DNA of 64,000 bases, taken from positions 1 to 64,000 of the forward strand of contig SCUK01000012.1 in assembly GCA_004297445.1 (NCBI GenBank), written 5' to 3'. The stretch is from Anaerolineae bacterium (GTDB taxonomy: Bacteria; Chloroflexota; Anaerolineae; Anaerolineales; UBA11579). How positions within the stretch are numbered: position 1 is the stretch's first letter; each line of letters starts with the position of its first letter. Below, in pieces: positions 15,374 to 36,873 of the stretch. The position numbers and the translations under genes are program-made. The notes below the pieces were generated by a model. The model was not told the origin of the DNA and ran no database searches. It worked only from the letters and a program-made list of their open reading frames with translations.

Positions 15374-15474
15374 TTCGATTCTTACACTGAAAATTCGGCC
15401 TTTTCTCCTCTTTGCCACTCAACTGTCATGCGGTTGGCTTGCGGGGCATGCCAACCGCATTTACAATCAAGCAC

Positions 15475-18400: not shown

Positions 18401-19515
18401 CGGTGGCCGGGCTGGTGGGCGTCGTCAGCGAAGCCGGCTTGCGCCTGGTGGCCTCCGAAGGGTACGAAACCGAACTTGAAGCCTATCGCGATACCGGCAT
18501 CCTCCCGCCGGAGATGCCGGCGCTGGCCGAAGCCCTGCGCACCGGCCGCGTCCAGCTACCCGACCCCAAGACCCTGCGCTTGCGCGACACCCTGCTGGCT
18601 GGCGCGCAGGGCCAGTTCGTTATCCCCATCCGCCGCGAGACGGACGTGATTGGCCTGCTGCTGCTGGAAAGCGTGGAGCGTAATGCCTTTGACGAAGATG
18701 CCCAGGCGTTCCTCATCCGTCTGGCGGACCATGCCGCCATTGCCATCGCCAACGCCCAGCTATACGCCGAGGTCCAGCGCGCCAACATCGCCAAGAGCGA
18801 CTTTGTTTCGTTCGTCTCCCACGAACTCAAGACGCCGATGACCTCGATTCGCGGCTACGCCGACCTGCTGGCCGCCGGGGCCGTTGGGCCGGTCACCGAA
18901 GCCCAGAGTGAATTTATCTCCACCATCCGTTCCAATGTCAGCCGCATGGCCACGCTGGTCTCGGACCTGGCCGACGTCAGCCGCATCGAAGCCGGTCGCC
19001 TGCACCTGGAATTCGCCGGGGTCAAAGTATCCGAGGTGGTGGAAGAGGTAGTACGGTCCACCCGCGCCCTGTTTGATGAAAAACAACAGGAACTGGTCGT
19101 GGATTTGCCGGAAGACCTGCCGCTGGTCTGGGGTGACCGCAACCGCATGGTGCAGGTGATGACCAACCTCACCAGCAACGCCAACAAATACACGTTGCTG
19201 GAAGGCAAAGTCACCATCAAGGCCCGGCGGACGCGTAATGAGTGGGACCCGCAGGGCGCGGATGAGGTGGTGCATATCCAGATTCAAGACACTGGGATTG
19301 GCATCAAGGAAGAAGACCAGAAATACATCTTCACCCAGTACTTCCGCACCGAAGAAGGCAAAGACACCGCCCCCGGCACAGGTCTGGGACTTAACATTGC
19401 CCGCAACCTGGTGGAAATGCAGGGCGGCAAGATCTGGTTTGAAAGCATTCTCGGCAAGGGCACAACGTTTCAGTTTACCGTGCCGGTCGCTGACCCCGAA
19501 CTGGTAGCGAATTAG
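15475..19515 (+). CDS. Membrane sensor histidine kinase: PDZ-like N-terminus, TM bundle, several GAF domains, HisKA/HATPase (start at internal ATG; listed ORF begins 15412)
   Basis: FVSFVSHELKTPMTSIRGYADL H-box, DTGIGI and GTGLGLNIARNLVE ATPase motifs; repeated GAF endings (AAIALENARLY, AAIAIANAQLY). Confidence 0.93.
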   Translation: MDEVNTSAPAVPAVSGRRVRLLPLGVLAFQLLALAALAAAPLLAWQWSRNAFAGLLLEPNLVLSDLGPVSAGAWRGPRPPVPAGAQLIAVEGQPVLNAQDFAAQLAGRIPGELIELDLRAADGAAVNATVQLQQMPIPDRLAYLYLPYTVGLAFLALGLWALNLRRNDRAGRAFSLFAAALALVLGGLFDFYSTHRLVAFWLAGFAVMGGSLLHLALVFPRPARLVVKLPWLAALGYVAGGGLAINALIALNQTDAPFTFRLGLNLLLAFAAVSGALLLARLLWTRFRSPSPTDQQQTRVTLLAAGLGFAPLALWGMARLAGLGSIPLPLVLLPGTLFPAGLAAAILRLRTASTDAFVRRALVYAILTILAGAGYAALVSGASLVLADVLRPEEPALLGALVFALALVFNPLRTRLERVINAVFFRGDAAQRAQIELFEESLARAMETGHIVSELRQKIENDLQPGRLHVFVYNASTDLYEAAPDSTRRPTTDIRFARSSPLAVVLRESQPALFIGAAEPLPPELGSEKARLALLGAQLYVALPGQQRLEGWLALGPRRGGEPYTGPDVSYLTALAEEAGLALSRGQVLADKDRRVLEMNVLTRVAQGVNITLDFDDILELIYAQARQVIPLTDFSITLYDVPTGGLRHVFYVEEDERLEEQEQRLIPPGRGLARLVLESGRHIAVDDYERACRAQRVLPAKEGIFAWMGVPLNAGAETIGVVSVSSRDAAVRYTDDQRGILQAISDQAAGAIVKARLLEESQKRTRQLGKLNEVAQSLSSTLEIKPLLDNILRSAVEILNCEAGSLLTLDEETGELVFDVVVGSAESELKGTRMASGSGLVGKAVNDRQPFIVNNVKQSQDWEASKDKETGFITRGILGVPMMVKDRVLGVIEVINKKDGMPFSQDDLELLTAFTGQAAIALENARLYTLTDQQLASRVEELSVMQRIDRELNTSLDVSRAMRITLEWAVRQSAAVAGLVGVVSEAGLRLVASEGYETELEAYRDTGILPPEMPALAEALRTGRVQLPDPKTLRLRDTLLAGAQGQFVIPIRRETDVIGLLLLESVERNAFDEDAQAFLIRLADHAAIAIANAQLYAEVQRANIAKSDFVSFVSHELKTPMTSIRGYADLLAAGAVGPVTEAQSEFISTIRSNVSRMATLVSDLADVSRIEAGRLHLEFAGVKVSEVVEEVVRSTRALFDEKQQELVVDLPEDLPLVWGDRNRMVQVMTNLTSNANKYTLLEGKVTIKARRTRNEWDPQGADEVVHIQIQDTGIGIKEEDQKYIFTQYFRTEEGKDTAPGTGLGLNIARNLVEMQGGKIWFESILGKGTTFQFTVPVADPELVAN

Positions 19516-19516
19516 T

Positions 19517-20692
19517 ATGGCGTTGCATGCCGCCGTGGGCCAGGCAACAGACCTGGATGGACGGGAAGCCGCCAGCCAGGCGGCGCAGCTTGCCCTCACC
19601 CAGATGGACGCAGCACGCCCGGTGGCCGCCATTGTGTTTGCCAGCCATGAATACGAGGTCCAGGCGGTGCAAAGCGGGTTGGCCGCCCGGCTCGGCGATA
19701 CACCCGTGTTCGGGTTCAGCACAGCCGGTGAACTCAGTTCCGGCGGGCGCGGTCGGCGTTCGGTGGTCGTGGCGCTGGTGGCCGGAGATGGCCTGGCCGG
19801 CCGGGTGGGCTGGGCGCAGGGCAACGCCGAAAACGGAGGAAGGGGCATTGAGGAACTTAGCGCCGCGTTGGGCCTCGGCGCCAACAGCCACGGCGCGCTT
19901 CTGCTGGCCGGCCCGGGCCTGACGTTAAATGGCGACGCGCTGGGCGCAGCTCTGCCGCCGGGTGATTATGCGCTGGCGGGCGCCCTGGCGGGCGGCGATG
20001 TGCGCCGGGGTCATACATTTCAAATCGCCGGGGGGCAGGCGGGCGGCAACGGGCTCGCCGGGCTGTATTTGGGCGGCAATGTGACCGCTGGCGTGGCGTC
20101 CGGGCATGGCTGGCGTTCGGTGGGCGCGTATTTCAAAATCACCGGCACACGCGGCGCCTGGGTGCGCATGTTGGACGGCAAACCCGCCAGCGAGACGTAC
20201 GCCAGCCTCTTCGGCCACTCGGCGCGGGATTGGGCCTTCCCGCCGCTGAATGAAATGGTTCGGCTCTACCCACTGGGTCTGGAAGCCGATGGGGTGGAAG
20301 GGTTGAACGTGCGCACTCCTTTGCAGGTGGAGCCGGATGGCAGTCTGCGCATGAACGCGCTGGTCGCCGAAAGCACCATGGCGCATTTGCTGGTGGGCAG
20401 CACGGAAGCCTGCCTTACCGCCGCTCGGGATGCCGCTGGACGGGCGCTGAAAGCGCTGGGCGGGGCCAAACCGCGCCTGGCGATTGTGCTGGCAGATGTG
20501 GGCTGGGAGATGCTCTTCCGCGGGCAGCCCGGCGCAGAAGTGGGGGCGTTGCGCGATGTCCTTGGCCCGGATGTGCCGCTGGCCGGCGGCTATACACTGG
20601 GGCAGTTCGCCCGCCCGGGTGGCGATGGTCTGCCGCAGTTCTTAAATCAACAGATGGTCGTACTGGTGCTGGGCGAAAAGGGAGAAGTGTAA
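19517..20692 (+). CDS. FIST N/C domain sensor protein
   Basis: FIST-like features: VFGFSTAGELSSGGRGRRSVVVALV, AGALAGGD, GAEVGALRDVLGPDVPLAGGYTLGQFARPG. Confidence 0.85.
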   Translation: MALHAAVGQATDLDGREAASQAAQLALTQMDAARPVAAIVFASHEYEVQAVQSGLAARLGDTPVFGFSTAGELSSGGRGRRSVVVALVAGDGLAGRVGWAQGNAENGGRGIEELSAALGLGANSHGALLLAGPGLTLNGDALGAALPPGDYALAGALAGGDVRRGHTFQIAGGQAGGNGLAGLYLGGNVTAGVASGHGWRSVGAYFKITGTRGAWVRMLDGKPASETYASLFGHSARDWAFPPLNEMVRLYPLGLEADGVEGLNVRTPLQVEPDGSLRMNALVAESTMAHLLVGSTEACLTAARDAAGRALKALGGAKPRLAIVLADVGWEMLFRGQPGAEVGALRDVLGPDVPLAGGYTLGQFARPGGDGLPQFLNQQMVVLVLGEKGEV

Positions 20693-20704: not shown

Positions 20705-21391
20705 ATGAATAACGAGATACTTTCGTATCTTGAGATGTGTCAACTAGAGGGAGTCAATCTTCAGAAAGGGATGAACTATCGTCTCGGTGGGGATTACTCA
20801 GTTATCCTAATGTCATTAAGGAAAGGGGCTCCATATCAGGACCAAGTTTCAGAAGACGGCCAGATGATTATCTATGAGGGCCATGATATCCCAAAAACTG
20901 AAGGAGTTGTTGACTCAAAGAATCATGACCAGTCTGACATTACCCGATTTGGAACACTGACAGAAAATGGAAAATTCCATCGTGCAGCGCAAGAATATAA
21001 GAAGGGTTTGAGATCACCCGAACACGTTAGGGTTTATGAAAAGATCCGTAATGGGATTTGGTCAAATAATGGGGTATTTGAATTAATCGATTCTTGGATT
21101 GAGAACGATGGCGCTCGCAATGTATTTCGTTTTCGCCTCCAATTAGTACAACTAGAAACAGAACGAAACAAGATTCATGATGAACTTCCAAATACGCGGG
21201 TCATCCCTTCGCATGTAAAGATAGCAGTATGGAAGAGAGACAAAGGTCAATGCGTGATATGTGGCGCTAGCGAACATCTCCACTTTGACCACATCATCCC
21301 CTTTTCCAAGGGCGGGAGCTCTCTGGTGGCTGACAATATACAATTGTTATGTGCGCAACATAATTTAGCGAAGCGTGACCGAATTGAATAA
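20705..21391 (+). CDS. HNH endonuclease with SRA/YDG-like N-terminal domain (putative modification-dependent, Type IV-like)
   Basis: C-terminal CVICGASEHLHFDHIIPFSKGGSSLVADNIQLLCAQHNLAKRDR HNH motif; N-terminal YSVILMSLRKGAPYQDQVSEDGQMIIYEGHD and RVYEKIRNGIWSNNGVFELIDSW resemble SRA domains; AT-rich. Confidence 0.82.
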   Translation: MNNEILSYLEMCQLEGVNLQKGMNYRLGGDYSVILMSLRKGAPYQDQVSEDGQMIIYEGHDIPKTEGVVDSKNHDQSDITRFGTLTENGKFHRAAQEYKKGLRSPEHVRVYEKIRNGIWSNNGVFELIDSWIENDGARNVFRFRLQLVQLETERNKIHDELPNTRVIPSHVKIAVWKRDKGQCVICGASEHLHFDHIIPFSKGGSSLVADNIQLLCAQHNLAKRDRIE

Positions 21392-22705: not shown

Positions 22706-23794
22706 CTACGGCGTGTCGTAAGTCGAAAAGCTGACTTCGAGAGTCTGCACGCTTCCGGCATCCGCCGGGGTCAGGCTGAGAACCTTTAGAAAGCCTACGC
22801 GTCCATCATTCGTCCGGTAGCACAGGTATTGTCCCACCAAGCCGCTGTTCACCTGAATCGTGCCGCTGCCCATGGTGGCGCCAGCGCAGTTCGCCAGACT
22901 CGGTGCAGAGGAGCCCCACACGCCAAACACGGCGCCGTTCTGGGGCGCAATCGCCTTGTCGCTGCTGCTGTTGGCGGTGAACTGGAAATCGTAACCGCCC
23001 CCGGAAGGCGACACATTGCCGACATCCAGATCCAGCCGGAAGGTTTCACTCACTGCCACGCTGCTGGCGCTGCTGTACAGGCTGGGGCTGGCCGTGGCGC
23101 TGGGCGCGGGTGTATTGGTCGGTCCGCCGGGTGTGTTGGTGGGGCCGGCCAGCGTCGCTGTCGGGCCGCTTCCCACCACGATGATGACCCAGAACGGCGA
23201 GCCGCCGTCCACGCCGAAGCGCGTGCCGACCGCGTTCGCCAGCATCCAGTTGCCGGTGTACGTGGCGGCGCCGGTGGGCGCGGTGAGGTTAACGGAGATG
23301 TCAATTTCCTGACCTACCGGTACGCTGGCGGTCAGTTTCTGGCTGGTCGGGCCGCCCATGATGTCGCCGCTCACGAAGACCAGCGTGTAACTGGTGGTCC
23401 ATTCGCAGGTGCCGGTATTCTTCAGCCGCCAGGTCTTGGTAAAGGTCTGGCCGGGCGTCATCTGGGTGCGGTCATCCACGGTCACATCGCGCACAAAGCC
23501 GGCGGCATCGCAGCCAGTGTTGCCCCCGGTTTGCGGAGCGGTCGTCGGGCGCAGGGTGGCAGTGGTCGCCGGGGTTATGGTGACGGTCGGCGTAGCGGTG
23601 GGTGAGGGGGTGGCAGTGCTGGTAGGCTGGTTGGCAGCTGCCTGGGTAAGTTCGAAAGACACTGTGGCCGCCGCCCGGGTCATCACAGCATCCGCGGAGC
23701 TGGTGGGCGTCGCGTTATCGGAACCGGGCAGGTTGCAGGCGCTGAGCGAAGCGGCCAGCAGGAAGGATAGAAGAATCATTGGCTTGGGGTGCAT
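22706..23794 (-). CDS. Secreted lipoprotein with NBR1-type Ig-like domain
   Basis: Lipobox MILLSFLLAASLSACN; Pro/Thr-rich linkers; TFTKTWRLKNTGTCEWTTSYTLVFVSGDIMGG motif. Confidence 0.85.
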   Translation of the reverse strand: MHPKPMILLSFLLAASLSACNLPGSDNATPTSSADAVMTRAAATVSFELTQAAANQPTSTATPSPTATPTVTITPATTATLRPTTAPQTGGNTGCDAAGFVRDVTVDDRTQMTPGQTFTKTWRLKNTGTCEWTTSYTLVFVSGDIMGGPTSQKLTASVPVGQEIDISVNLTAPTGAATYTGNWMLANAVGTRFGVDGGSPFWVIIVVGSGPTATLAGPTNTPGGPTNTPAPSATASPSLYSSASSVAVSETFRLDLDVGNVSPSGGGYDFQFTANSSSDKAIAPQNGAVFGVWGSSAPSLANCAGATMGSGTIQVNSGLVGQYLCYRTNDGRVGFLKVLSLTPADAGSVQTLEVSFSTYDTP

Positions 23795-23896
23795 ATTAAA
23801 TTTGCCTCCGTAGGGGCTGTGGGGCAAGGGTGTGCCAATGGACAATTGTAACGGGAGTGCCGGGAAAAGGAAGTGCAGCCTCCATCGAAAGGAGGA

Positions 23897-24682
23897 TTAC
23901 CGAACGCGCCGTTTCCACTCATCCTTTAGTTGGAGTTGTTGCGGGCTTTCGCCAGACCCCAGTTCCAAAAAGTCGCTCAAAAGGCGATGGAATTTACTGG
24001 GTTGGTCCAGCATCGGGAAGTGGCCGACTTCTTCAAATATCAGGTGGTGGGAACTGCCCGGCAGCGAGCCGTTGCTCAAGTTCGGCGTCTTCACCGCCGG
24101 GTCATTCTGGCCGTGCACTATCAACGCCGCCGTTCCCATCTGGCGCGAGATCGCCATCATATCGATGTGCTGCAACTCAGTCAGCGATGTGCGGATGGCC
24201 TCGCCGTCTGCCTTGGGGGCTTCCGTGCGGGCGGCCTCGGTGGATGGGTTCTGCGCCAGCAGCCATCCGGCAAGGTCCGCGATATTGCCGCTGGCCATGC
24301 GCTCGTTGAGGTCGGCGGGGGTGAACGGCATGCCGATCGCCATGTAGCGGTCTACGACAAATGGGTGCTTGGAAGCAAACAGGGCCGCCACAATCGCGCC
24401 CAGTCCGTGACCCACTAGCGCGACCTTGGCGATGCCCATTTCATTCAGGAAACGGTCCAGCAGGTTGGTCTGGCTTTCCAGACTGTAGCGGTCCGCTGAC
24501 TTGGCGCTGTCGCCAAAGCCCCACAGGTCCACCGCGTAGGCGCGGTAGGTAACCGAAGTCGCCTGCATGGTGGGAATCCAATAGCGCCACGAGCCCACCC
24601 AGCCGTGCAGGAAGATCACCGGCTTCCCGCGGCCGAGGACTTCGTAATGGACTACCCGGTCTTCAATGATGATGGCGCTCAT
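23897..24682 (-). CDS. Alpha/beta hydrolase-fold protein lacking the Ser nucleophile
   Basis: HGWVGSWRYW oxyanion motif; nucleophile elbow reads GHGLG; HFPMLDQP retains His. Confidence 0.9.
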   Translation of the reverse strand: MSAIIIEDRVVHYEVLGRGKPVIFLHGWVGSWRYWIPTMQATSVTYRAYAVDLWGFGDSAKSADRYSLESQTNLLDRFLNEMGIAKVALVGHGLGAIVAALFASKHPFVVDRYMAIGMPFTPADLNERMASGNIADLAGWLLAQNPSTEAARTEAPKADGEAIRTSLTELQHIDMMAISRQMGTAALIVHGQNDPAVKTPNLSNGSLPGSSHHLIFEEVGHFPMLDQPSKFHRLLSDFLELGSGESPQQLQLKDEWKRRVR

Positions 24683-24709
24683 CGTGTGTTCACCAGCGGC
24701 CTTAGAGGC

Positions 24710-25087
24710 TCACTTCTTGGCGTATTTCTCCAGTAGTTCTTTGACCTTGACGGTGAGTTGGTCCGGCGCAAAGGGTTTGAGAATGTATTCCACCGCGCCC
24801 GCTTCCAATCCTGCTGAGACTTCGCTTTCCTGGCCCTTCGCGGACAGAAACACCACCGGAATGGGCTTGAGGGCATCAATTTCCTTCATCTTCTTGCAGG
24901 CCTCATAGCCGGTCATGCGCGGCATGCGCACGTCCATCATGATCAGGTCCGGCAGCACCTCTTGCGCTTTCAGGAAGGCTTCTTCGCCGTTGGCGGTGGG
25001 CACCACCTCATGCCCGGCGAATCGCAGGGTGAACGTGATAAGGTCGCGAATGTCACGTTCGTCTTCGGCGATCAGTATTTTTGCCAT
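24710..25087 (-). CDS. CheY-like response regulator
   Basis: MAKILIAEDERDIRDLI, phospho-Asp PDLIMMDVRMP, VVFLSAKG; start at ATG 25087. Confidence 0.95.
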   Translation of the reverse strand: MAKILIAEDERDIRDLITFTLRFAGHEVVPTANGEEAFLKAQEVLPDLIMMDVRMPRMTGYEACKKMKEIDALKPIPVVFLSAKGQESEVSAGLEAGAVEYILKPFAPDQLTVKVKELLEKYAKK

Positions 25088-25088
25088 G

Positions 25089-28000
25089 TTATGCCTCCTC
25101 CGAGGAGTCTTCTTTTTGTTCAGGCTTGTAGGCCGGCAGCACGAACGAGAATGTACTGCCCTGGCCGGGCATGCCGCTGCTTTCAACCCAGATGCGGCCG
25201 TTGTGCATTTCGATGAGTTCCTTCACGATGGCGAGACCCAGACCGGTGCCGCTGGTGGCCATCACCAGGTGATTCTCGCCGCGGTAGAAGCGGTCAAAAA
25301 TACGGTCTTGCTCATCCGGGAAAATACCGATACCGCTATCTTTCACATCCACCTGCACATTGCCGTTCACGGCTTTGAGCCCCACGATGATGCGGCCATC
25401 TTCCGGCGTGTAGCGATAGGCATTGTCGATGATGTTGCTGAATACTTGGCGGATGCGCTCGGCATCCCCATAGGCGTTGGGCAGGTTGGGCGGGCATTGA
25501 ATCTGGAACCCCATCGGGCGGTTTTCTTCCTGCGACTTGCGTTCAATGTACTCAACGACTTCCTCGGCGATTTCCTGCATATTGAGCGGCTGCATCGAGA
25601 GCGCCACCTTGCCGGCCTCAATACGGCTGACATCCAGCAGGTCGTTGACCAGGACGCTCAGCCGGTCGATATTGCTGCTGATGATTTCCATGAACTGGCG
25701 CTGCTGCTCATTGAGCTCGCCCGCGCCGCCCATCATCATGAATTCCACATAGCCTTTAATCGGCGTCAGCGGCGTACGCAGTTCATGGCTTACCGTGGCG
25801 ACGAATTCAGACTTCAGGCGGTCGACCTCAACCTGGTGGGTGATGTCCCGGAAGATGGACACGGTGCCCAGGAATTCACTTGCGGAATACACCGGCGCCA
25901 GATGCACCGAAACCACCCGGCCATCGTCCAGCGAAAGCCGTTCCGAGTACTGCTCGCCTTCGGCGCGCCCTGCGGGGGCCTCAGACCAGCCGCGGATGGC
26001 GGCCATCCAGGGCTGGGCGGCGGCGCCGAACAGTCCCAGGAAATTATCCAGTGAACGGCCCACGACCTCCTGCTGTTCGAGAAGCAGGATGGTCGCCGCG
26101 GCGTCGTTGAACAGCGTGATGGCGTTCTGGTGGTCCGTCACCAGGATACCGTCGGCCACGCCTTCCAGCATCGCGGTGGAACGGCTGGCCTCGATTTGCT
26201 GCGAGCGGAGCATCGTGCCGAGGTCGGCGGCCTGGTCACGAATCAGGCGGAACAACTCACCATTGTTAATCGAGACCGCAAACTGGTTGGCGGCCGCCTG
26301 CACCGCGTCAATCTGGTATTCGGTGAAGTGGTTGGGTTCCCGGTGGTAGAGCATCAGCGCGCCCAGTGCATCCGCGCCCACCGTCAGCGGCACAACGATG
26401 GCCGAACGGTGCACAGAAATATCTCCCCGGTCACCAATCCAGCGCTCGTCTGTGCTGAGGTCGGGAATCACCAGCGGGCTGCGATTTTGAATCACCCAGC
26501 CGGCCAAGCCTTCGCCCACCCGGTAGGAGGAAGGCCGGCCTCCGGTGGGTGCAGCCCCGGAAATGCCGATGCCGGCGCGGTACACCAGGTTCTCTTCGCC
26601 CGGCCGGACGATGATGATGCTGGATTGCTCGGCGTTTACCGCCTGGTTCAGCTCCTCCAGCGAGCGATTCAGCACGTGGTCCAGGTCCAGGCTGGCGGAA
26701 AGTTCCGCCGAAATGCGCAGCAGGGCTTGCATGAAATGATGCTCGCGTTCCAACTCATCCGTGCGGGCGCGCACGCGTTCTTCCAATTGTTCGTTCAACC
26801 GGCGTGATTCTTCAAACAGCCGGGCGTTCTCCAGCGTCAGGCCGGTCTGCTGGGTGAGTGAGGTAACCAGCGCTTCGTCTTCGGCGCTGAATGCGTTCTG
26901 GGTATTGAAATTGTCCAGCGTGATGAGGCCCATAGCTTTGTCGCCGGCGCGGATGGGGATAAGCATGCTGCTGACCGGCACACGCCCGCCGGTGGCTTCC
27001 CGGTAGATGAGCAGTTTTTCGGGGCTCAGGTTGTAATGCCGCGCGAAATCGACTTCGTGCACTCGTCGGGCGGCATTGGCGGCGAACACCTGGCCGGGCA
27101 GCGCCTCGTTGCGGCTGAAGGTCAGCCGTTTCACCAGGTCATTGTCGCTGTAACCGCTGGCCGCATGGATTACGAGCTCATTCGCCGACGAGTTCCACAG
27201 CGCCACCAGCCCGGCATGTGCGCTGGTCAGCGCCTTGCGGGCGCTTTCCACCAGTGTGGCAAGGATTTGCGATTCGCTGAGCGAGCCGAGCTGCTGGCTG
27301 AATTCAAGCAGCAGGTTCACTTCGCGCAGGCGGCGGCGCGTTTCGGTGAGCAGATTGATGTTCTGCAGGGCAATGGCGACCTGGCTGCCAATCAGGTCAA
27401 AGATTTGCTGGTCTTCCTCATTGAACGCCGGCATCGCCGTGTTGCTTACTGCCAGTACCGCCGCGTCCACATGCCCGTTGGAGGAAATCGGCAGGGTGAC
27501 GAACCCCTTGGCATTTAGGTTCTTGAGCAGCGGCGTGTTCTGCCACTCGGCATTCTGGTCCAGGTCAGAGACCAGGATCGGTTTGCCGTTCAGCAGCGTC
27601 TGGCGCAGCGGGTTGCGCTGGCCCAGCAACGCTTGCGGGTTGGCGGTCTCCGGAAGGTTACCCAGCCGTTGCAGAAGTCGCGGGCCGCTGCTGGCTGGCT
27701 CGACCACCAGCGCCGAATCCATTTCGAGGCGGGTGATAAGTTCCTGGCCCAGCGCCTGCAAAACAGCCTCGCGGTCCGGCTGGCGGTTCACGGTCTCGGC
27801 AATGTCCAGACCGATGCGGATGTTGCGCGCCCGGTCATACAGTTGCTGGATGGTTAGCGTCTGTTCCAGGTCCTTGTGCAGCAGGATACTCAGGTTGTCC
27901 TGTGCGTTGCGGCTGGAGCGTTCGGCGCGCCCAATCTGGCCTTCAATCTCATCCACCCGCTCTCGCAGGGAGCGCAGGCGCAGCGCGGATTCAATCACCA

Positions 28001-31000
28001 GCGCGGCTTCGGTGGCGAAGATTTCGAGGGTTTCGATGGTCAGGGTATCCGGGCGCAGGCCGTCGGGCGGCGCGTCCACGGCGATCACGCCCAGTGGGTG
28101 CTTGCTGGCATCCCGCAGCGGCACCAGCAGCAGGTCCCCCGGCATCCACGCATTGGCGCTGTTCTCCGGGATGGTGTAATTGGTGCCGGCATACGCGGGG
28201 ACCAGCGCCACCGTGCCCGCGGCTTCTGTATGTGGGATGAAGTACGAATCGCTGCGCCGCCGCTCCGCATGCAGCAGGCTTTCCAGCTCACTCCACGGAT
28301 GCAGGACCTGGCGCACCTGTTCCAGCGTTTCCAGCGGCAGCCCGGCGCCGCTGGCGGCGCGCAACACTTCGTGCTGGGGGTCAAACGCGTAGATAAGCAC
28401 CACGTTGAAGAGGTTGGCTTCCCGCACGCCGAATGCGATGATTTCCAACGCCTCTTCCAATGGCATTTCGAGATTTACCGCCCGGGTGGTCTCGAACAGG
28501 CGGTTGAAAGCGTCCACGCGGCGGTTGAGCACTTCGCCGCGTTCCACCTGGTGCTGGTAGCGTTGGGCGTTGCCGAGGGCGATGGCCGCCTGCACAGCCA
28601 GCGCCTGCGTGATTTCCAGCGCGACGGCATCGAAATGGTCCGGCTGGCGGGCATACAGGTGAATAAGTCCGGCGGTGGTTTCCTGGAATGCGATGGGCAC
28701 CAGCAGGGCGGAGCGAACCCCCGGCCGGCTGGGCGTTTCGCTGCCGCGCTCAAAATCGTCCACGATCAGCGGCTCGCCTTCAGCCAGCACGCGCTCTTCC
28801 AGCGGGGTCAGCGCTTCGTTTTCGGTCTCAATCTGCCCCAGGTTGAGCAGGATGCGTCGTTCCCCGTGCCCGTTGCTGCTCTCCAGGTCCAGCAGCACAA
28901 TCTTGCCGCCGCTGGCGCTGGTGGTGCGCATCGCTTCGTCATACACGCGCTGCACGAGGTGATGCAGATTCAACGTGGTATTCAACTCGCGGCTGATGCT
29001 GGAAAGCGCCGTCAGGTGTTCCACGCGGCGTTGCAGCGTCACGTCGGTCTGAGCATACAGCTGGGAACGCTCTATGGCGTTGGCCAGTTGGCTGCCGGCC
29101 GTGGAGAGTGATTGGGTGTCGTTCTGGTCAAAATCTCCGGAGCGGCGGCTGGCCACCAGTAATTCGCCCACGCCGCGGTCGCGGATGGTGAGCGGCACGA
29201 CCATCACCGAGCGCATCGCAGCAAACCGGCCCAGGATGGTCTTGTAGAAGGGCGGCAGGATTGCCGTGCGGGTGTCGGGGATGAGCAATGGCATGCCGGT
29301 GGCGGTCACGCTTTGCCGGAAGGCTTCGTCGTGTGTTGCTAGGCGTTCAATGTCATCAATCAGTTCCGGCGCCATTCCCACCAGCGAATCGCGGTGCAGG
29401 CGCAGTTCGCCGCGCGTCTCGTCGCGCAGGTAAATGGCGGCGTGGTCTGCGCCAAAGAACCGCGCCGTTTCCATCAATGAGAATTTGAGGATTTCATCCA
29501 GCGTGGCATCCGCGCCGGCCAGGCTGGCGATGCGGCGCAGGGTTTCGGCGCGCTGGGCACGCCGCCGGCTCTCGCGCATCAGCGCCGCGTTGTCCAGAAT
29601 CGGGGCCGCCTGCCCGGCCACAATCGTCAGCAGGCGCAAGTCGTCATCATTGAAGCGGCTGCCGTCGCGTTTGTTGGCGACCTGCAGGTAACCCAGGGCA
29701 CGACCGCTGGCCGCCAGAGGAATCAGCACCGTGCGTTCAATCGCGGCCGCCAGGGCGAGGTGGGCAATCCCCAGGTCGGTCAGCGCAGAATCTTCGGCGG
29801 CATTGTCGGTGAAGATGACATCACCGCTGTTCCACACTCGTTCGCCGGGCCCGCCCACCGGGACTTCGGCCCGATACAGTTCAACGAAATTGTCCGGCAG
29901 CCCCTGGAAGGGAATTTTGCCTTGCAGGAGGCGTTCGCCTTCGTGGTAGATGAGAAAGCCGATGATTTCTACGTCCAGCAATCGGCCGATGCTGGCAGTC
30001 AATCGTTCATACAATTGGTGTTCGTCGCGGATGGATGAACCGACCTTGGCCAAATCGGCCAGGCCGCTGATTTCCGCCACGCGTTGCCCTTCTTCATGAT
30101 GGATGATGGCGTTTTGCAGCGCGACCGCTGCCTGCCCGGAGAGCATGGTCAGTATCTCGAGGTCGCTTTCGGCGAAGGCGTTCAAGCCCTGGCTCGCCAG
30201 TTCCAGCGTGCCAATCTGCTGTCCGGCCACCACCAGCGGGATGCCGAGATAGGACTTGAAGGGGAATTCCTTGCGATCCAGCGCCGGGCGCACCAGAAGA
30301 TAGGAATCAATATCATTGACCAGCAACGGCCGTCGTTCGTTAATCAGGTAGCCGGAATACCCCTGGCTGACTTTGTAGCGGGTCGTACTTTTTTCAAGTT
30401 GCGATTCACCACCCAGCCCGGCAGTGTAGCGGTAGGGCGTCAGTTCCTCGGTATCCGGGTCCCACAGCGTGATCTCGGAGAAGTCGGACTGCACTAGGCG
30501 GTCTACGTTTTCAAGGATGGTTGTGATGGTGGTTTCGAGGTCCAACGAGGCGGACATCGCCTGGCTGATTTCTGCCAGGATGGTGAAGGTCTGGGCATTG
30601 GCCCCGCCGCCCTGGTTTTCCAGGGTCACCAGCTGTGGACGGCGCAGCGTGAGCAGGATGGCGCGCTCGCCCATGAATGGCAGGCTGTACGAAGTCCCCT
30701 CGACGAGGAACTTGCCCAGCGTGAAGCGGGATTGGCCGGCCGTGGCGCACAGACTCAGGAACGTTTCAGCCGGGCGCACGCTGCGTGCCATGGTTTCCAG
30801 GTTGGGGAGGTCTTCCGCGCCCAGGTTGAACCACTCGCGGGCGCGGGCGTTTAGGAAACGTGCCCGCCCCCCGGACTCAATGAGGATGATGGCATCTTCA
30901 CTTGGGGCCACATCCAGCGGGAAGGCCAGCACCGGCGCGGCCGCTGTGTCGCGGCGCAGGCGCGGCACGCTGCGCAACAGCAGCGGGGCCAGGCCCAGAA

Positions 31001-31058
31001 AGGCCAGCCCCACCAGCACGAGCGTGATCCCCAGCGGGGTCATTCCCAGGTCAAACAT
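25089..31058 (-). CDS. Giant hybrid-free sensor histidine kinase (1989 aa): PAS, about 8 GAF, PAS, HisKA, HATPase
   Basis: FVATVSHELRTPLTPIKGYVEF H-box; DSGIGI, GTGLGLAIVKELIE; eight GAF-like repeats each ending in AxxALxNAxLxx. Confidence 0.95.
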   Translation of the reverse strand: MFDLGMTPLGITLVLVGLAFLGLAPLLLRSVPRLRRDTAAAPVLAFPLDVAPSEDAIILIESGGRARFLNARAREWFNLGAEDLPNLETMARSVRPAETFLSLCATAGQSRFTLGKFLVEGTSYSLPFMGERAILLTLRRPQLVTLENQGGGANAQTFTILAEISQAMSASLDLETTITTILENVDRLVQSDFSEITLWDPDTEELTPYRYTAGLGGESQLEKSTTRYKVSQGYSGYLINERRPLLVNDIDSYLLVRPALDRKEFPFKSYLGIPLVVAGQQIGTLELASQGLNAFAESDLEILTMLSGQAAVALQNAIIHHEEGQRVAEISGLADLAKVGSSIRDEHQLYERLTASIGRLLDVEIIGFLIYHEGERLLQGKIPFQGLPDNFVELYRAEVPVGGPGERVWNSGDVIFTDNAAEDSALTDLGIAHLALAAAIERTVLIPLAASGRALGYLQVANKRDGSRFNDDDLRLLTIVAGQAAPILDNAALMRESRRRAQRAETLRRIASLAGADATLDEILKFSLMETARFFGADHAAIYLRDETRGELRLHRDSLVGMAPELIDDIERLATHDEAFRQSVTATGMPLLIPDTRTAILPPFYKTILGRFAAMRSVMVVPLTIRDRGVGELLVASRRSGDFDQNDTQSLSTAGSQLANAIERSQLYAQTDVTLQRRVEHLTALSSISRELNTTLNLHHLVQRVYDEAMRTTSASGGKIVLLDLESSNGHGERRILLNLGQIETENEALTPLEERVLAEGEPLIVDDFERGSETPSRPGVRSALLVPIAFQETTAGLIHLYARQPDHFDAVALEITQALAVQAAIALGNAQRYQHQVERGEVLNRRVDAFNRLFETTRAVNLEMPLEEALEIIAFGVREANLFNVVLIYAFDPQHEVLRAASGAGLPLETLEQVRQVLHPWSELESLLHAERRRSDSYFIPHTEAAGTVALVPAYAGTNYTIPENSANAWMPGDLLLVPLRDASKHPLGVIAVDAPPDGLRPDTLTIETLEIFATEAALVIESALRLRSLRERVDEIEGQIGRAERSSRNAQDNLSILLHKDLEQTLTIQQLYDRARNIRIGLDIAETVNRQPDREAVLQALGQELITRLEMDSALVVEPASSGPRLLQRLGNLPETANPQALLGQRNPLRQTLLNGKPILVSDLDQNAEWQNTPLLKNLNAKGFVTLPISSNGHVDAAVLAVSNTAMPAFNEEDQQIFDLIGSQVAIALQNINLLTETRRRLREVNLLLEFSQQLGSLSESQILATLVESARKALTSAHAGLVALWNSSANELVIHAASGYSDNDLVKRLTFSRNEALPGQVFAANAARRVHEVDFARHYNLSPEKLLIYREATGGRVPVSSMLIPIRAGDKAMGLITLDNFNTQNAFSAEDEALVTSLTQQTGLTLENARLFEESRRLNEQLEERVRARTDELEREHHFMQALLRISAELSASLDLDHVLNRSLEELNQAVNAEQSSIIIVRPGEENLVYRAGIGISGAAPTGGRPSSYRVGEGLAGWVIQNRSPLVIPDLSTDERWIGDRGDISVHRSAIVVPLTVGADALGALMLYHREPNHFTEYQIDAVQAAANQFAVSINNGELFRLIRDQAADLGTMLRSQQIEASRSTAMLEGVADGILVTDHQNAITLFNDAAATILLLEQQEVVGRSLDNFLGLFGAAAQPWMAAIRGWSEAPAGRAEGEQYSERLSLDDGRVVSVHLAPVYSASEFLGTVSIFRDITHQVEVDRLKSEFVATVSHELRTPLTPIKGYVEFMMMGGAGELNEQQRQFMEIISSNIDRLSVLVNDLLDVSRIEAGKVALSMQPLNMQEIAEEVVEYIERKSQEENRPMGFQIQCPPNLPNAYGDAERIRQVFSNIIDNAYRYTPEDGRIIVGLKAVNGNVQVDVKDSGIGIFPDEQDRIFDRFYRGENHLVMATSGTGLGLAIVKELIEMHNGRIWVESSGMPGQGSTFSFVLPAYKPEQKEDSSEEA

Positions 31059-31076
31059 GGGTGTCCGTCAGAGTCC

Positions 31077-31970
31077 TCAGGCGGCAGAGTCTTTGCGGCG
31101 TGATTCGGCGGCGAGTTCAGTGATCTCGCGGATGTCGGAGATTTGCTGCTTGCCGGCTTCCACCAGGCCCACGGAAATGTTCATCAGTGGGGTTTGCTGC
31201 TTCTGGCCGCCGTCGTTGGTGGTTTCGATATAGCCTTGTTCGCGGTCCATGAAGTTGTAGTGGCTGAGGACCTGTTCCGCGAAGCGCTTCTTCACCGCGG
31301 TGTGTACTTTGGCCCCGGCATCTTCTGAACAGATGATGATGAAATTGTTGCCGCCCGGGTGGCCGATGAAATCATCCGGACTGCCGAATTCGTCCATCAC
31401 TTCACCCAGCAGCATGGTGGTGAAGCGCAGGACATCATCGGCGGCAACGAAGCCATAGATTTCCTTGAAAGCTTCAAAATAGTTCAGGCGCAGATCGAGG
31501 TAGGCCCATGACTCGCGACGGATGATCTGGCGTAACTGCTCTTCTATCAGGCGGCCGGAGGGCAGGCCGGAACGCGGGTCGGTGAGGCTCTCGCGTTCCG
31601 CACGGGCAATGGCATTGACCACCCGCAGTTTCAACTCCTCGATATCGAATGGCTTGGTGATGTAGTCGTCTGCACCCAGTTCCAGCCCCTGCAACTTGTC
31701 GCTGCGTTCATCCCGCTGGGTGAGGAATATCACCGGGATATGGCTGGTCCGGGTATTGGTTCGCAGCCGGCGGCAAACTTCATAGCCGTCGATGTCCGGC
31801 AACATGATGTCCAGGACGATGAGGTGGGGCAGGCCCTGACGGGTCTTCTCCAACGCCACTTCGCCACGCGGCGCCACATCGACATCGAAACCTTGCCCGC
31901 TGAAATAGATGCGGAGCATGTTCGAGATATCGAAATCATCCTCGACGATCAGTATTCTGGCTTTTCCCAT
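31077..31970 (-). CDS. Response regulator with degenerate GGDEF domain
   Basis: REC domain PHLIVLDIMLPDIDGYEV; C-terminal diguanylate cyclase-like fold with GGNNF in place of GGDEF. Confidence 0.88.
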   Translation of the reverse strand: MGKARILIVEDDFDISNMLRIYFSGQGFDVDVAPRGEVALEKTRQGLPHLIVLDIMLPDIDGYEVCRRLRTNTRTSHIPVIFLTQRDERSDKLQGLELGADDYITKPFDIEELKLRVVNAIARAERESLTDPRSGLPSGRLIEEQLRQIIRRESWAYLDLRLNYFEAFKEIYGFVAADDVLRFTTMLLGEVMDEFGSPDDFIGHPGGNNFIIICSEDAGAKVHTAVKKRFAEQVLSHYNFMDREQGYIETTNDGGQKQQTPLMNISVGLVEAGKQQISDIREITELAAESRRKDSAA

Positions 31971-31990
31971 AAGACCTCCAGAAGCATGAA

Positions 31991-33082
31991 TTAAACGTTG
32001 CGACGCGCACGACGAGCCCGTTCTCGCACGCGTTCGATTTGCTCAATTGTGACGGCCTGCTCAAAGGAACGGAACCCACTGAGGCGGAAGCCGTGTTTCT
32101 CTGCTATTGTATCAATTTCCTGTACCCGTTCGCGGGCAATTTGCTTGCCCAGTGTGTAGTCCTCAAAACGGCCTTCCAGGGCCAGAGCAATCGTTTCGGC
32201 CATGCAGGCGTAGGCTTTCCCGGCCGGGAAGCCGAAATCGAAGTTGAAATTCACATCCCCGGGCACATCCACCATGCCGCCGTCAATCACCAATACATCG
32301 TCGCGGGCGGCCGCCACCCGCGCCGCCACATCCCGTGGGCGGGCCACATCGCATACCACGCTGCCCGGGAGCAGATGCTCCGGTTGGATGATGGCGTGGA
32401 CATCACTGGTAACGGTGAGTATCAGGGGCGTGTGCTGCAGGGCGCCCAGGTCGGTGCTGGTGTGCAGTTGGGCTGTGCTTCCTGCGGCTCGTATTCGCTG
32501 GCACAGGGCATCCAGCGCCTCCTGTCGGCGGCCTATCAGGGTCAGTTCGGCCACCTTGTCCGCCAGCAGTTCCGCGCACACCTGCCCGATGGCTCCGCTG
32601 GCCCCCACCACCGCCGCGGCAGACTGCGCCATGGGGATTTCCATCACGCGGGCAGCTTCTTCCACAGCCCTCACCGCCACAGCCACTGTGTAGGCGTCGC
32701 CGGTGGTTACGGGCACGTCCAGGGCTTTGGCGACTGTCACGCCCGCATCGCCAACGACCGAGGTGTAGGCGCCCAACCCTAGGATGTTCGCGCCCAGCCG
32801 CTCCGCCAGCCGGCCCGTCTGGATGATTTTTTTGTAGACGGTGGGCTCGGCCAGTTCCAGCATCCGGCGCGGGGTGAACGGGCAGGCGATGAGCCAGCCG
32901 GTTACCTGCTTGCCGGTGGCGGCAGAGGTAATGCCCTGGATTTCAGAGAGGTAGACGGGTGGAAAGAAGGTGGAGAAGAAATCGATCTGGCGCTCGCTCA
33001 GCGCCCGCCCCAAAAAAGGAAATTTTCGGCTGACATCCCGCTTCGCATCAATGGGATGGATGATGAATGCAAAGGTGTCCAA
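31991..33082 (-). CDS. Acyl-[acyl-carrier-protein] reductase (AAR)-like oxidoreductase
   Basis: Resembles cyanobacterial AAR as recalled: SATGKQVTGWLIACPFTPRRML, LGAYTSVVGDAG, TGDAYTVAVAVRAVEEAAR, VVGASGAIGQV (NADPH), AGKAYACMAETIALALEGR containing the expected catalytic Cys. Confidence 0.82.
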   Translation of the reverse strand: MDTFAFIIHPIDAKRDVSRKFPFLGRALSERQIDFFSTFFPPVYLSEIQGITSAATGKQVTGWLIACPFTPRRMLELAEPTVYKKIIQTGRLAERLGANILGLGAYTSVVGDAGVTVAKALDVPVTTGDAYTVAVAVRAVEEAARVMEIPMAQSAAAVVGASGAIGQVCAELLADKVAELTLIGRRQEALDALCQRIRAAGSTAQLHTSTDLGALQHTPLILTVTSDVHAIIQPEHLLPGSVVCDVARPRDVAARVAAARDDVLVIDGGMVDVPGDVNFNFDFGFPAGKAYACMAETIALALEGRFEDYTLGKQIARERVQEIDTIAEKHGFRLSGFRSFEQAVTIEQIERVRERARRARRNV

Positions 33083-33085
33083 ACG

Positions 33086-34396
33086 CTACCAGGTTTCCGT
33101 GGTGACCTTTTTCTCGCGTTCCGGGTCGTACAGCCGTTTGTGCAGTTGGGCCGCCTTCAACTGGTGGTGGTCGCTTTGTTCAAATGGCACATTGTGGTCA
33201 ATCACTCGCCGCTTGTCACCGGAGACGATGACGACATCCGACTCGATGACCCGCGCCGGGGAGACCACCACGCCAGCGCCGATGCGGCAATTGTGCCCCA
33301 CGCAACCGCCCAGCACGGCGCGGTTGGCGTCGCTTAATTTGCCTGCGCCATCCAGCGCGCGGATGGGGGCGGGCAGCAGGTTGTAATCCGTCCAGGTGGA
33401 GCCGGCGCCGATGAAGGTGTTGCGGCCCACCACGCACATCTGCAGGCACGTGTTCTGCGCCACCATGCTGTTGTCCATCAGGGTGGTCATGAACAGGGAG
33501 GCGCGGAAGGGAAGGAACGTGCCGTCGCCCACCACCGAGAGCATAAGCTGGCAGCCCTGCGAGACGTTCACATTGTCACCGATGATGCAGTTTTCAATCA
33601 CCGCCCCGGCGCCGATGGTGACGTTATCGCCAATGGTTGTGGGGCCGTGGATGATGGCAGTAGGGTCAATCGAGGCGTTGCGCCCGACCTTGACCAGTTC
33701 GCGGCTCTCCAGGATTTGCTTGCCTTCGTACAGCGCCCCGGCCAGGATTTTGAGCTTAAAGACCAGGTCCTGATTCAGGCGGTCTTCAAAACGCGCCCCG
33801 CGCGCGAACAGCCCGAACACGATGTCCACGATGAAGATATGCACCCAGGAATCAATAGCGATCAGGGCGCGTAGCGGAACCTGGAAGGTCAGGTCGCCGG
33901 ACTGGGAGGCCATATAGGTCGGCACATGGTAGTAGCCAACCTCGCGGGCCTGCAGGTCAATGAGCACCGGCTCCACCTGGGCTTCCGGCACCGGCCCATC
34001 CGGGAAGTACCAGAAATCCGCCAGATACAGCCCGCCGGCAGGGGTATAGGAGGTGGCAAGCGGGAGGGCGTGCTCGCGAAAGGAAGGGTCAGCCGGGGAA
34101 AAGGCGGCCCGACAGGCCTTGCCGCGCTTGCGCGCTTCGGTCATAAAAGCATTGACGAAAAACTCGTCGAAATACAGGTTGTCAGCGTAGACGATGCAGG
34201 CGCGTTCGTTCTGAAACTTGAAGAAATCCGAATTCAGTACTTCTTCCAGGCTGTTGGCTTCCAGTTCGGTCTGGGCATAGGGGGCCAGCACGTCCCGCTG
34301 GTGCAGCCAGAGCAGTTTGTTCTGGATGCGCAGGTCGCGGGCGTGGTCGTTGAACGGGTAGATGTATCGCGGGTCTTTGATGGCAACTTTGATCAT
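33086..34396 (-). CDS. Left-handed beta-helix (hexapeptide repeat) GlmU-like protein
   Basis: Hexapeptide repeats GPTTIGDNVTIGAGAVIENCIIGDNVNVSQGC and CVGRNTFIGAGSTWTDYNLLP. Confidence 0.85.
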   Translation of the reverse strand: MIKVAIKDPRYIYPFNDHARDLRIQNKLLWLHQRDVLAPYAQTELEANSLEEVLNSDFFKFQNERACIVYADNLYFDEFFVNAFMTEARKRGKACRAAFSPADPSFREHALPLATSYTPAGGLYLADFWYFPDGPVPEAQVEPVLIDLQAREVGYYHVPTYMASQSGDLTFQVPLRALIAIDSWVHIFIVDIVFGLFARGARFEDRLNQDLVFKLKILAGALYEGKQILESRELVKVGRNASIDPTAIIHGPTTIGDNVTIGAGAVIENCIIGDNVNVSQGCQLMLSVVGDGTFLPFRASLFMTTLMDNSMVAQNTCLQMCVVGRNTFIGAGSTWTDYNLLPAPIRALDGAGKLSDANRAVLGGCVGHNCRIGAGVVVSPARVIESDVVIVSGDKRRVIDHNVPFEQSDHHQLKAAQLHKRLYDPEREKKVTTETW

Positions 34397-34587
34397 GGTG
34401 TGCTCGTCTGACCGGTTTGATTCAATTCGAGTATATCGCGGGGGTGCGCGGCCAGTATGTCAATTTCAGGAAAGATATGTGTTCACCGGCAAAACAGCCG
34501 CCGGCAGGATTGGGCCAAATTCTGCGGGATTATAACGCCCGGTAGGAAGGGTTGCAGGATTTGGGCCGTTGTGCTGGAGGGGGCGGT

Positions 34588-35370
34588 TTATTCGTCCAGG
34601 AACTGCTTGAGGGTCGTCATGAATGCCCGCGGCTGGTCCAGCATGGGGAAATGCCCGGCGTGTTCCATGAGTTGGACGTGGGGTTCAGCCACCCCGGCTT
34701 CCAGCAATTTGTACTGGTTTGGGTTAACCAGGTTGTCCTTGAGCCCGTAGATTCCCAGTACCGGTTTATGGATTTGTTCCAACGTGGCGCGCAGGTCAGT
34801 TTTGCGCAGCGATTTGATGCTTGAGAGGAAGGACTCTAGCGTCGTCTTGTCGAGGTCCTGATTAATCATATCCGGCCAGCGCGGATCGTTCGTGATACGT
34901 GGCGCCGCGGCGCGCAGGCCCAGTTTCAACGCCCACAGCATATTGTGAACTGCCCAGGCGACTGGCGTGTAGCCGGCCAGTTTCAGTGGCAATGCCAGCG
35001 AACCACCCACGATGGGTGAGCCGATGATTCCCACTTTGGTCACGCGGTGCGGGTAACGGATGGCGACAGCCAGGCTCACCGTGCCCCCCATGCTGTGGCC
35101 GACCAGCGGCGCCTGTGCGATGCCCATCCTGTCCATGAACTGGTCAACCAGGCTCACGAAGTCAGGGATGTCGTAAGATTCGCGCTTCTTGCCGGATTCG
35201 CCAAACCCCCAGAAATCCAGGGCATAGGCACGGTAATCGTTCTGCAGGAAAGACATGGTCTCCTGCCACAGCCCCCAGGAGCCCAGCCAGCCATGCAACA
35301 GGATTACAGGTCGTCCGCGCCCATGGACTTCATAATGGACGACGCCCTGATCGGTAGTTATTGTGGACAC
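34588..35370 (-). CDS. Alpha/beta hydrolase
   Basis: HGWLGSWGLWQ, nucleophile GHSMGG, HAGHFPMLDQP. Confidence 0.94.
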   Translation of the reverse strand: MSTITTDQGVVHYEVHGRGRPVILLHGWLGSWGLWQETMSFLQNDYRAYALDFWGFGESGKKRESYDIPDFVSLVDQFMDRMGIAQAPLVGHSMGGTVSLAVAIRYPHRVTKVGIIGSPIVGGSLALPLKLAGYTPVAWAVHNMLWALKLGLRAAAPRITNDPRWPDMINQDLDKTTLESFLSSIKSLRKTDLRATLEQIHKPVLGIYGLKDNLVNPNQYKLLEAGVAEPHVQLMEHAGHFPMLDQPRAFMTTLKQFLDE

Positions 35371-35408
35371 AGCAATCGATTTCTCGCGCGGGGTTTCCCC
35401 GCCGTGGG

Positions 35409-35933
35409 TTATAGCTCGGTCAGAATCGTGCCGAGCAGCTCCAGCAAAACGCTCTTGACCGATTCGCGGTCAACCGCCACTGCCGGCAACAGTTTGACAT
35501 CCGGGTCCAGCCGCAGGGCGATGCGCATGTCGTCAATCTCCCAGGCGTCTTCCATGTCCTGCTTGTTGGCGGCCACCACATACGGGGTGGGGGCATACGC
35601 CCGGAAGGTCTCGAGGATGGCGCGGGCTTCTTTGAAAGTCTCCGGGCGCGTGCTGTCTACCATCACGATGAAGCCCAGCATGCCTTCCGAAAGGATTTCC
35701 CACATGAAGTCAAAGCGTTTCTGCCCGGGCGTACCGAACAGGTACAGCACCAGCTCGTCATCCACCGTGATGCGGCCAAAGTCCATCGCCACGGTGGTGG
35801 ACTCCTTGATTTTTTCGGCTTCGGACGAGACCTTGCGTTCGGTCGAGACGACATCAATCTCGCTGACGGTCTGGATAAACTCCGTCTTGCCGGAGTTGAA
35901 CGGGCCGGTCACTACCATTTTGACAGTTTGCAT
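35409..35933 (-). CDS. Small Ras-like GTPase (COG2229/MglA-like)
   Basis: P-loop GPFNSGKT, G3 GTPGQKRF, G4 AANKQD. Confidence 0.93.
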   Translation of the reverse strand: MQTVKMVVTGPFNSGKTEFIQTVSEIDVVSTERKVSSEAEKIKESTTVAMDFGRITVDDELVLYLFGTPGQKRFDFMWEILSEGMLGFIVMVDSTRPETFKEARAILETFRAYAPTPYVVAANKQDMEDAWEIDDMRIALRLDPDVKLLPAVAVDRESVKSVLLELLGTILTEL

Positions 35934-35965
35934 AGCGGGCTATCCTCGGTATGACAAGATGACTT

Positions 35966-36787
35966 CTACAGCGAACGAATCCGCCCGATGAGGCGGTTGA
36001 CGAGGTTCTTCTGCTCTTCCTTGTTCTTGCCTGGCATCGCCTTATCAATGCCGGGAAGGGTTTGTTCCACACCCTCCGGGCGAATCAACTCGACCAAACC
36101 CGCCTGCAACAGCCCGTACACGATGCGGCGGATGTCCAGCTCACTCATTTTGTTGGCTTTAGCAATGGCGCCAATGGTGTTCTTCGGGTTGATGAAGGAC
36201 ACCACTTTCCATTCTTCCACGCTCAGGTTGATATTTTTAAGATTCACGCCCGGCCGGTCGGTGAATTTCAGCGCCAGTTCCAGGTTGGGTAGTTCATCCT
36301 TCAACTGCTCCCACTCACGCAGGCGGCGTGAGCCTTCAATAATGATGTTCTCAAGGTCCAGCTTGACCGGAATCTTGTCTCCGGGGACCAGGATATCGTT
36401 ATCAAAATGGAAGATGCCTTCGACCCACGAGAACAGCCGCTGAATGATGTCCACAAAGTGCGTCTGCAGGCTGGCGAGGATGTCTTCCTGGCTCACGTAG
36501 CCGGAATTAATGAGCAATAAGCCCAGTTCTTTATCGTTCATGCTGGCCGCGCGTGCCTTGAGCGTACCGTACTGGGCGGTCGAAATCACATTGGACTTGT
36601 GCAAGATCGCGCCCAACCCGCCATCTTCCGTGTTGACCTGGGCATACGCCAGTTTGCCTTCCCGGAAGGTGATTGTGGCGGTCTCGCTCGGCCCTTCGAT
36701 GATAAGAGAACCGGTCTTTTGAGCCAGGTTTACCAGATTCAGCAACTGGGTGATGGTAAAGTCTCGTAAGTTGCCTTTTAATGCCAT
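35966..36787 (-). CDS. DUF4388 (PATAN-like) domain protein
   Basis: MALKGNLRDFTITQLLNLVNLAQKTGSLIIEG...ATITFREGKLAYAQVN. Confidence 0.9.
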   Translation of the reverse strand: MALKGNLRDFTITQLLNLVNLAQKTGSLIIEGPSETATITFREGKLAYAQVNTEDGGLGAILHKSNVISTAQYGTLKARAASMNDKELGLLLINSGYVSQEDILASLQTHFVDIIQRLFSWVEGIFHFDNDILVPGDKIPVKLDLENIIIEGSRRLREWEQLKDELPNLELALKFTDRPGVNLKNINLSVEEWKVVSFINPKNTIGAIAKANKMSELDIRRIVYGLLQAGLVELIRPEGVEQTLPGIDKAMPGKNKEEQKNLVNRLIGRIRSL

Positions 36788-36843
36788 GAAAGAGGCCTCA
36801 GCGCCGCGTGTGGATGGGTGGCATTCCGCCGCATAATGGCAGG

Positions 36844-36873
36844 ATTATACTTTATTAAGGAATTCGCGGTCAA
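36844..36873 (-). promoter_or_regulatory. sigma70-type promoter for the DUF4388 operon (TTGACC-N18-TATAAT on minus strand)
   Basis: Plus-strand ATTATA 36844-36849 and GGTCAA 36868-36873. Confidence 0.6.

Follow-up and report, generated by a model that had tools for sequence, protein, structure and literature searches.

Conservation of the gene block

We analysed a window of 64,000 nucleotides (nt) from contig SCUK01000012.1 of an Anaerolineae bacterium and found that a row of nine minus-strand genes within it (23897-36787) is not a chance arrangement, and that its constant core across the phylum Chloroflexota is a PATAN-type DUF4388 protein together with a small Ras-like GTPase of the MglA type. 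The other genes encode two alpha/beta-hydrolase-fold proteins (abhA and abhB), a left-handed beta-helix protein (LbH), a reductase resembling acyl-ACP reductase (AAR), a response regulator with a degenerate GGDEF domain (REC-GGDEF*), a large GAF-domain kinase and a single-domain receiver (REC). We see an even chance that the GTPase is the centre of a conserved signalling system and this block its principal locus, a system in which a kinase/receiver relay would act on an MglA-Roadblock switch and in which V4R-domain proteins, the hydrolases and AAR would make or sense a hydrophobic ligand.

The AAR-like protein was searched against 298 genomes of the class Anaerolineae and the 20-kb neighbourhoods of the matches were compared. 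In the 120 Anaerolineae loci gathered in this way, short contigs included, LbH recurred in all 120, and the numbers for REC-GGDEF*, abhB and the GTPase were 117, 114 and 98; the counts were made by similarity and are generous for genes that share domains, such as REC and both hydrolases. Overall, block genes recur in 94-120 of the 120 loci, whereas nine flanking control genes recur in 0-2, so that the boundaries of the block are sharp. An earlier annotation of this DNA (the original prediction) had named a lack of neighbourhood conservation as an outcome that would speak against it, and the reverse was found. The order DUF4388-GTPase-abhA-LbH-AAR-REC.GGDEF*-GAF kinase-REC-abhB is kept in about 40 loci, which belong to many families and include proteins only about 50% identical to those of the window. 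A second count, on 80 independently fetched named Anaerolineales loci with only contigs of sufficient length in the denominators, gave LbH 77/77, REC-GGDEF* 78/78, kinase 75/75, REC 67/67, abhB 61/61, abhA 59/66, GTPase 56/63 and DUF4388 53/60. The order and the counts in relatives thus bear out the proposal of a real unit in which genes of GTPase signalling stand together with thioester/ester enzymes and a two-component relay. Across genomes it behaves as two movable units, unit A (PATAN-GTPase-abhA-V4R) and unit B (LbH-(AAR)-REC.GGDEF*-GAF kinase-REC(s)-abhB).

The GTPase core and the optional reductase

The GTPase, a single G domain of 174 amino acids and thus below the 240 of the MglA family, aligns over its full length with solved MglA (phmmer), and its G2 (TTVAMDFGR) and G3 (LFGTPGQ) motifs are invariant, G3 in 36 sequences; in G3 the Ras-type DxxG is absent and the Ras Asp is replaced. 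G4 is ANKQD. An orthologue was found in 143 of the 298 class genomes and also in Chloroflexia, at about 65%. DUF4388 adjoins the GTPase in nearly all loci, Chloroflexia included.

The AAR-like protein retains a Rossmann GxxGxxG motif (G160, G163, G166) and C293, all invariant in 34 sequences, with C293 aligned to the catalytic cysteine region of the PigE-like solved entry 4ppm and of AAR 6jzq; the catalytic Cys and the NAD(P) Rossmann motif together place it in the AAR/PigE thioester-reductase superfamily. The protein is AAR-like, but it scores only 113 bits against TIGR04058 (long-chain acyl-ACP reductase), whose curated cut-off is 449.7, and it lies nearer to the thioester-reductase domain of PigE than to the cyanobacterial AAR family. 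The thioester reductase of PigE is reported to be its N-domain (PMC8341465). No match to aldehyde deformylating oxygenase (PF11266) was found in the window genome, a 3.2 Mb draft in 84 contigs that is 89% complete and has Anaerolineales MAGs as its nearest named relatives, and a cyanobacterial alkane pathway was set aside for want of a decarbonylase in this genome.

Blocks with a stand-alone AAR are in essence confined to Anaerolineae, and within the block AAR is an optional branch and not the centre. Two genomes (G202, G002) carry DUF4388-GTPase-abhA-V4R-LbH-REC-GGDEF*-kinase-REC-abhB with no AAR, and AAR is absent from 52 of the 143 GTPase-positive genomes, whereas the GTPase is present in 91 of the 93 AAR-positive ones. 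The idea of a relay built around an acyl-ACP reductase is not supported; because AAR is optional and the PATAN-GTPase pair is phylum-wide, a GTPase switch to which lipid-type enzymes were added is the more fitting description. Proteins of 690-760 amino acids in which an uncharacterised N-terminal domain of about 300 residues precedes an AAR-like domain (L154-L160, L162, L164, L165) occur in Chloroflexia, often in two copies, and also in Anaerolineae. They were rejected as block homologues, their neighbourhoods sharing nothing with the block.

Intact and degenerate catalytic sites in the block

AAR, abhA, the kinase, the receivers and the GTPase retain their catalytic residues, whereas abhB and the GGDEF domain have lost theirs. 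The kinase has 7-8 GAF domains followed by PAS, HisKA (SHELRTPL) and HATPase_c, and its His box SHELRTP[LM] is found in 34 of 35 sequences. The single-domain REC carries its phospho-acceptor Asp within a conserved DVRMP, and relatives often have 1-2 extra REC genes ahead of it. The phospho-acceptor Asp of REC-GGDEF* is likewise conserved, and no intact GG[DE]EF signature, the mark of a diguanylate cyclase, occurs among the listed variants of its 38 members (GGNNF in the window). Among the block genes, Pfam assignments revealed no DNA-binding regulator.

Both hydrolases match Abhydrolase_1, but the two paralogues are not equivalent. The triad of abhA (S93, D212, H240) is invariant in 30 sequences, whereas the nucleophile position of abhB (G93 in the window) holds G 16 times, A four times and D and S three times each among 26 sequences, with H221 retained. 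At its C-terminus abhB ends in a W-x-R-R-x-R tail (EW[KR]RRxR-type), whose W and three R are invariant in 26/26; since the tail is of low confidence in the structure model, it is probably a disordered interaction motif. LbH combines a nucleotidyltransferase-like N-domain with a left-handed beta-helix that bears an invariant H368 in a GHNCRIG-like motif (AF2 model, pLDDT 88.9, pTM 0.89), and Foldseek finds weak similarity to ST0452, GMPPA/GMPPB and GlmU. By-eye inspection found the nucleotide loop GxGTR to be missing, which makes nucleotidyl transfer by LbH unlikely as judged from its sequence; we do not claim it as a sugar nucleotidyltransferase, although the fold would fit.

V4R and Roadblock partners

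Two partners were missed by the original prediction because they are encoded elsewhere in the window genome. In 76 of the 120 AAR loci, abhA and LbH are separated by a V4R-domain gene of about 205 codons; in families that have no abhA, the V4R gene stands directly 3' of the GTPase. PF02830 scores above its cut-off in several of the relatives' proteins and below it in some. The V4R profile matches PoxR, MopR and MJ1460 in the PDB, and four invariant residues (C161, E184, C187, C195) align with the Cys/Glu metal-site pattern of PoxR and MopR, which are phenol sensors of the same family. At other loci the window genome holds two V4R genes, one of them in a three-gene operon Roadblock (MglB-type)-V4R-REC.GGDEF* (G000:C52, locus L192:7979-9966, minus strand) that is paralogous to parts of the block, its REC-GGDEF* being 46% identical to that of the block. 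This operon is kept in most class loci examined. A decayed V4R remnant in the gap between the units was considered and not accepted, the match being only 36% with a tblastn E-value of 0.013 in a 400-nt target.

Elsewhere the partners come together. Roadblock adjoins the GTPase in G013, G100, G553 and G307; G013 has DUF4388-GTPase-Roadblock-abhA-V4R-LbH-AAR-REC.GGDEF*-kinase in a single operon, and G307, a genome outside the class, has the compact operon DUF4388-GTPase-Roadblock-V4R-LbH-abhA-Roadblock (L237 4839-13356). Upstream of the latter stand a LuxR-type response regulator, the sole DNA-binding regulator seen beside the module, and a REC-GAF kinase. Across the 298 genomes, GTPase and Roadblock occur together in 133, singly in 10 and 7, and are both absent from 148 (Fisher p 3e-62, a statistic that ignores shared ancestry).

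A model of the system and its rivals

In the proposed system the multi-GAF/PAS kinase would phosphorylate the receivers, which, because they have neither a DNA-binding nor an active enzymatic output, may influence the GTPase module (PATAN, Roadblock, V4R) through direct protein contact, much as RomR-type receivers act on MglA/MglB. The contact of receivers with MglA/MglB, that of MglA with RomR, and the kinase-GTPase operons known as conservons have been described (PMC4316618). V4R and the nucleophile-less abhB could serve as receptors for a hydrophobic small molecule, which abhA, as an esterase/thioesterase-type enzyme, and the AAR-like reductase, converting an acyl thioester to an aldehyde, would make or remove, AAR being an optional branch of this chemistry. 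The ligand branch and the kinase-receiver branch would then converge on the GTPase-Roadblock switch, whose output may be polarity, surface motility, envelope or gene expression. V4R proteins, presumed binders of hydrophobic molecules, are homologous in fold to TRAPP Bet3 (PMC2253512), and in RsbQ-PAS an alpha/beta hydrolase can take part in sensing alongside kinases and cyclases (PMC3183031). A further step, that V4R and Roadblock jointly control the Ras-like GTPase in a lipid-gated complex, which would give Anaerolineae a functional equivalent of the eukaryotic TRAPP exchange factor, supplied by the AAR-like reductase and the active/inactive hydrolase pair, seems to us doubtful; the comparison is a lead from fold homology in the literature and the gene linkage found here. 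Earlier work has examined the GTPase, Roadblock and TRAPPC3 proteins of Asgard organisms (PMC10933270).

Several observations weigh against a single GTPase-centred system. Units A and B lie apart in L055, L056 and L068-L070 and are divergent in L073, and because they can be separate each may form a system partly independent of the other. In deep families and in Chloroflexia there is just the PATAN-GTPase pair, or the pair with V4R/Roadblock, so the further block genes may be lineage-specific additions. The window block itself has a 191-nt gap where most relatives carry the V4R gene, and the two V4R genes elsewhere in the genome need not be a functional replacement for it. The neglect of shared ancestry in the co-occurrence statistics falls on the same side. 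Even so, it is very improbable that the two units are unrelated operons set next to each other by accident. Their separation or divergence in some genomes and the gap, commonly filled by V4R elsewhere, would agree with this, yet in 53/60 to 59/66 named loci they stand side by side and point the same way, the GTPase of unit A accompanies nearly every AAR genome (91/93, as above), and LbH and abhA sit within the GTPase-V4R-Roadblock operon of G307.

Two other functions were weighed for the block. It could be a polarity or surface-motility module, with type IV pili or gliding under the control of the MglA-type GTPase together with Roadblock and PATAN, and with the lipid-type enzymes adjusting that control. 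MglA/MglB and PATAN-receiver proteins have this role in Myxococcus and cyanobacteria, PATAN and MglA genes are neighbours in other genomes (PMC4316618), and the PATAN-GTPase pair reaches into Chloroflexia; the block, however, has no pilus or motor gene, and the PilM marker occurs in 56 of the 143 genomes that have the GTPase and in 38 of the 155 that lack it, a weak link made with matches that are themselves weak, so that a type IV pilus connection through PilM was set aside. We regard this function as possible but unlikely. Much the same holds for a lipid-biosynthesis operon, whose LbH, AAR and hydrolases would make a defined lipid (a fatty aldehyde/alcohol derivative or a modified glycolipid) and whose GTPase and two-component genes would only regulate. 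The full set of catalytic residues in AAR and abhA is in keeping with it, and LbH proteins are often acyl/acetyltransferases, with the invariant His of the GHNCRIG-like motif present here; but AAR is lost while all other block members stay, LbH has no nucleotide loop, abhB no nucleophile, the block no DNA-binding regulator and the genome no aldehyde decarbonylase, and we consider such an operon rather unlikely.

Gene layout and neighbouring genes

All nine open reading frames lie where they had been placed, and each has Pfam support (Table 1). In gene order, unit A has gaps of 32 and 38 nt and unit B gaps of 3, 20, 18, 1 and 27 nt, and a stretch of 191 nt separates the two; the very short gaps that had been described for the whole row are thus real within the units, but the 191 nt split it in two, in line with the units A and B of the original prediction. 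The promoter motif proposed ahead of unit A is present and matches 11 of 12 consensus bases (36873-36844), and promoter-like sites with at least 9 of 12 are about as frequent in the region as expected by chance (4 found, 3.5 expected).

Table 1. Features of the block in window coordinates.
Feature	Position	Strand	Basis or remark
Candidate sigma-70-like promoter TTGACC-N18-TATAAT	36844..36873	-	Motif match only; 5' of unit A
DUF4388 (PATAN-type), unit A gene 1	35966..36787	-	Pfam PF14332, 7.3e-26
MglA-type small Ras-like GTPase, 174 aa (amino acids)	35409..35933	-	Pfam small GTPase
abhA, alpha/beta hydrolase, GTG start	34588..35370	-	Pfam Abhydrolase_1
Gap between units A and B, 191 nt	34397..34587	-	V4R gene position in most relatives
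LbH, unit B gene 1	33086..34396	-	Pfam Hexapep
AAR-like acyl-thioester reductase, TTG start	31991..33082	-	Pfam Shikimate_DH-type Rossmann
REC-GGDEF* response regulator	31077..31970	-	Pfam Response_reg and weak GGDEF
Large sensor histidine kinase	25089..31058	-	Pfam 7 GAF_2 stretches, PAS, HisKA, HATPase
Single-domain receiver REC	24710..25087	-	Pfam Response_reg
abhB, alpha/beta-hydrolase-fold protein	23897..24682	-	Pfam Abhydrolase_1
abhB C-terminal tail EWKRRVR	23900..23920	-	Conservation in 26 sequences

Downstream of abhB, after 51 nt, lies a putative lipoprotein gene with an NBR1-type Ig-like domain (22706-23845, minus strand), which is not conserved alongside the block. On the plus strand, 15412-20692 encodes a 1367-residue kinase-like GAF protein and, after a 1-nt gap, a FIST sensor-domain protein, and 20705-21391 encodes a possible modification-dependent restriction enzyme, with an HNH endonuclease domain and a weakly matching SRA-like domain.

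Comparison with known systems

The original prediction could not name the system, and our literature searches, which spanned part of the literature, likewise found no published description or name. One close likeness is the MglA/MglB switch of Myxococcus and Thermus with its RomR/FrzS receivers, which shares a G3 lacking the Ras Asp, a Roadblock protein in the same genomes (for the window genome at its second locus, and in 133 of the 143 GTPase-positive genomes) and receivers in the operon. To this the block adds PATAN, V4R, the hydrolases, LbH and the AAR-like reductase, and Roadblock mostly stands at a second locus with V4R. The actinobacterial conservon (CvnA kinase, CvnB Roadblock, CvnC, CvnD GTPase), which has no receiver and whose kinase carries LPxR at its C-terminus, also links a histidine kinase, an MglA-family GTPase and Roadblock in an operon, whereas here the kinase is GAF/PAS-rich, two receiver genes are present, no CvnC-type gene is seen among the nine, lipid-type enzymes are added and the lineage is Chloroflexota.

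Single members have relatives of their own. The reductase shares sequence family, Rossmann motif and the position of the catalytic Cys with the PigE/TamH thioester-reductase domain and cyanobacterial AAR, but is a stand-alone protein of about 363 residues with no aminotransferase fusion, scores under the AAR equivalog cut-off and occurs in a genome lacking aldehyde decarbonylase. RsbQ-PAS (the RsbQ hydrolase with a PAS-phosphatase, kinase or cyclase) resembles the block in having alpha/beta-hydrolase genes beside a PAS kinase and GGDEF-type proteins; RsbQ, however, requires its catalytic triad, which is intact in abhA, whereas abhB has G, A or D in place of the nucleophile in 23 of 26 sequences. 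With the TRAPP Rab-GEF core (longin dimer and Bet3/TRAPPC3) the block has in common linked genes for a Ras-like GTPase, Roadblock-type and V4R-fold (Bet3-related) proteins, but the GTPase is MglA-type and not Rab, and V4R is closer in sequence to PoxR/MopR than to Bet3. As far as we found, the system is an apparently undescribed form of GTPase signalling of the MglA/conservon kind, and, with ten or more genes conserved across an abundant, poorly studied class, it would amount to a novel way of wiring the control of MglA-type GTPases, with a coupling to acyl-thioester chemistry.

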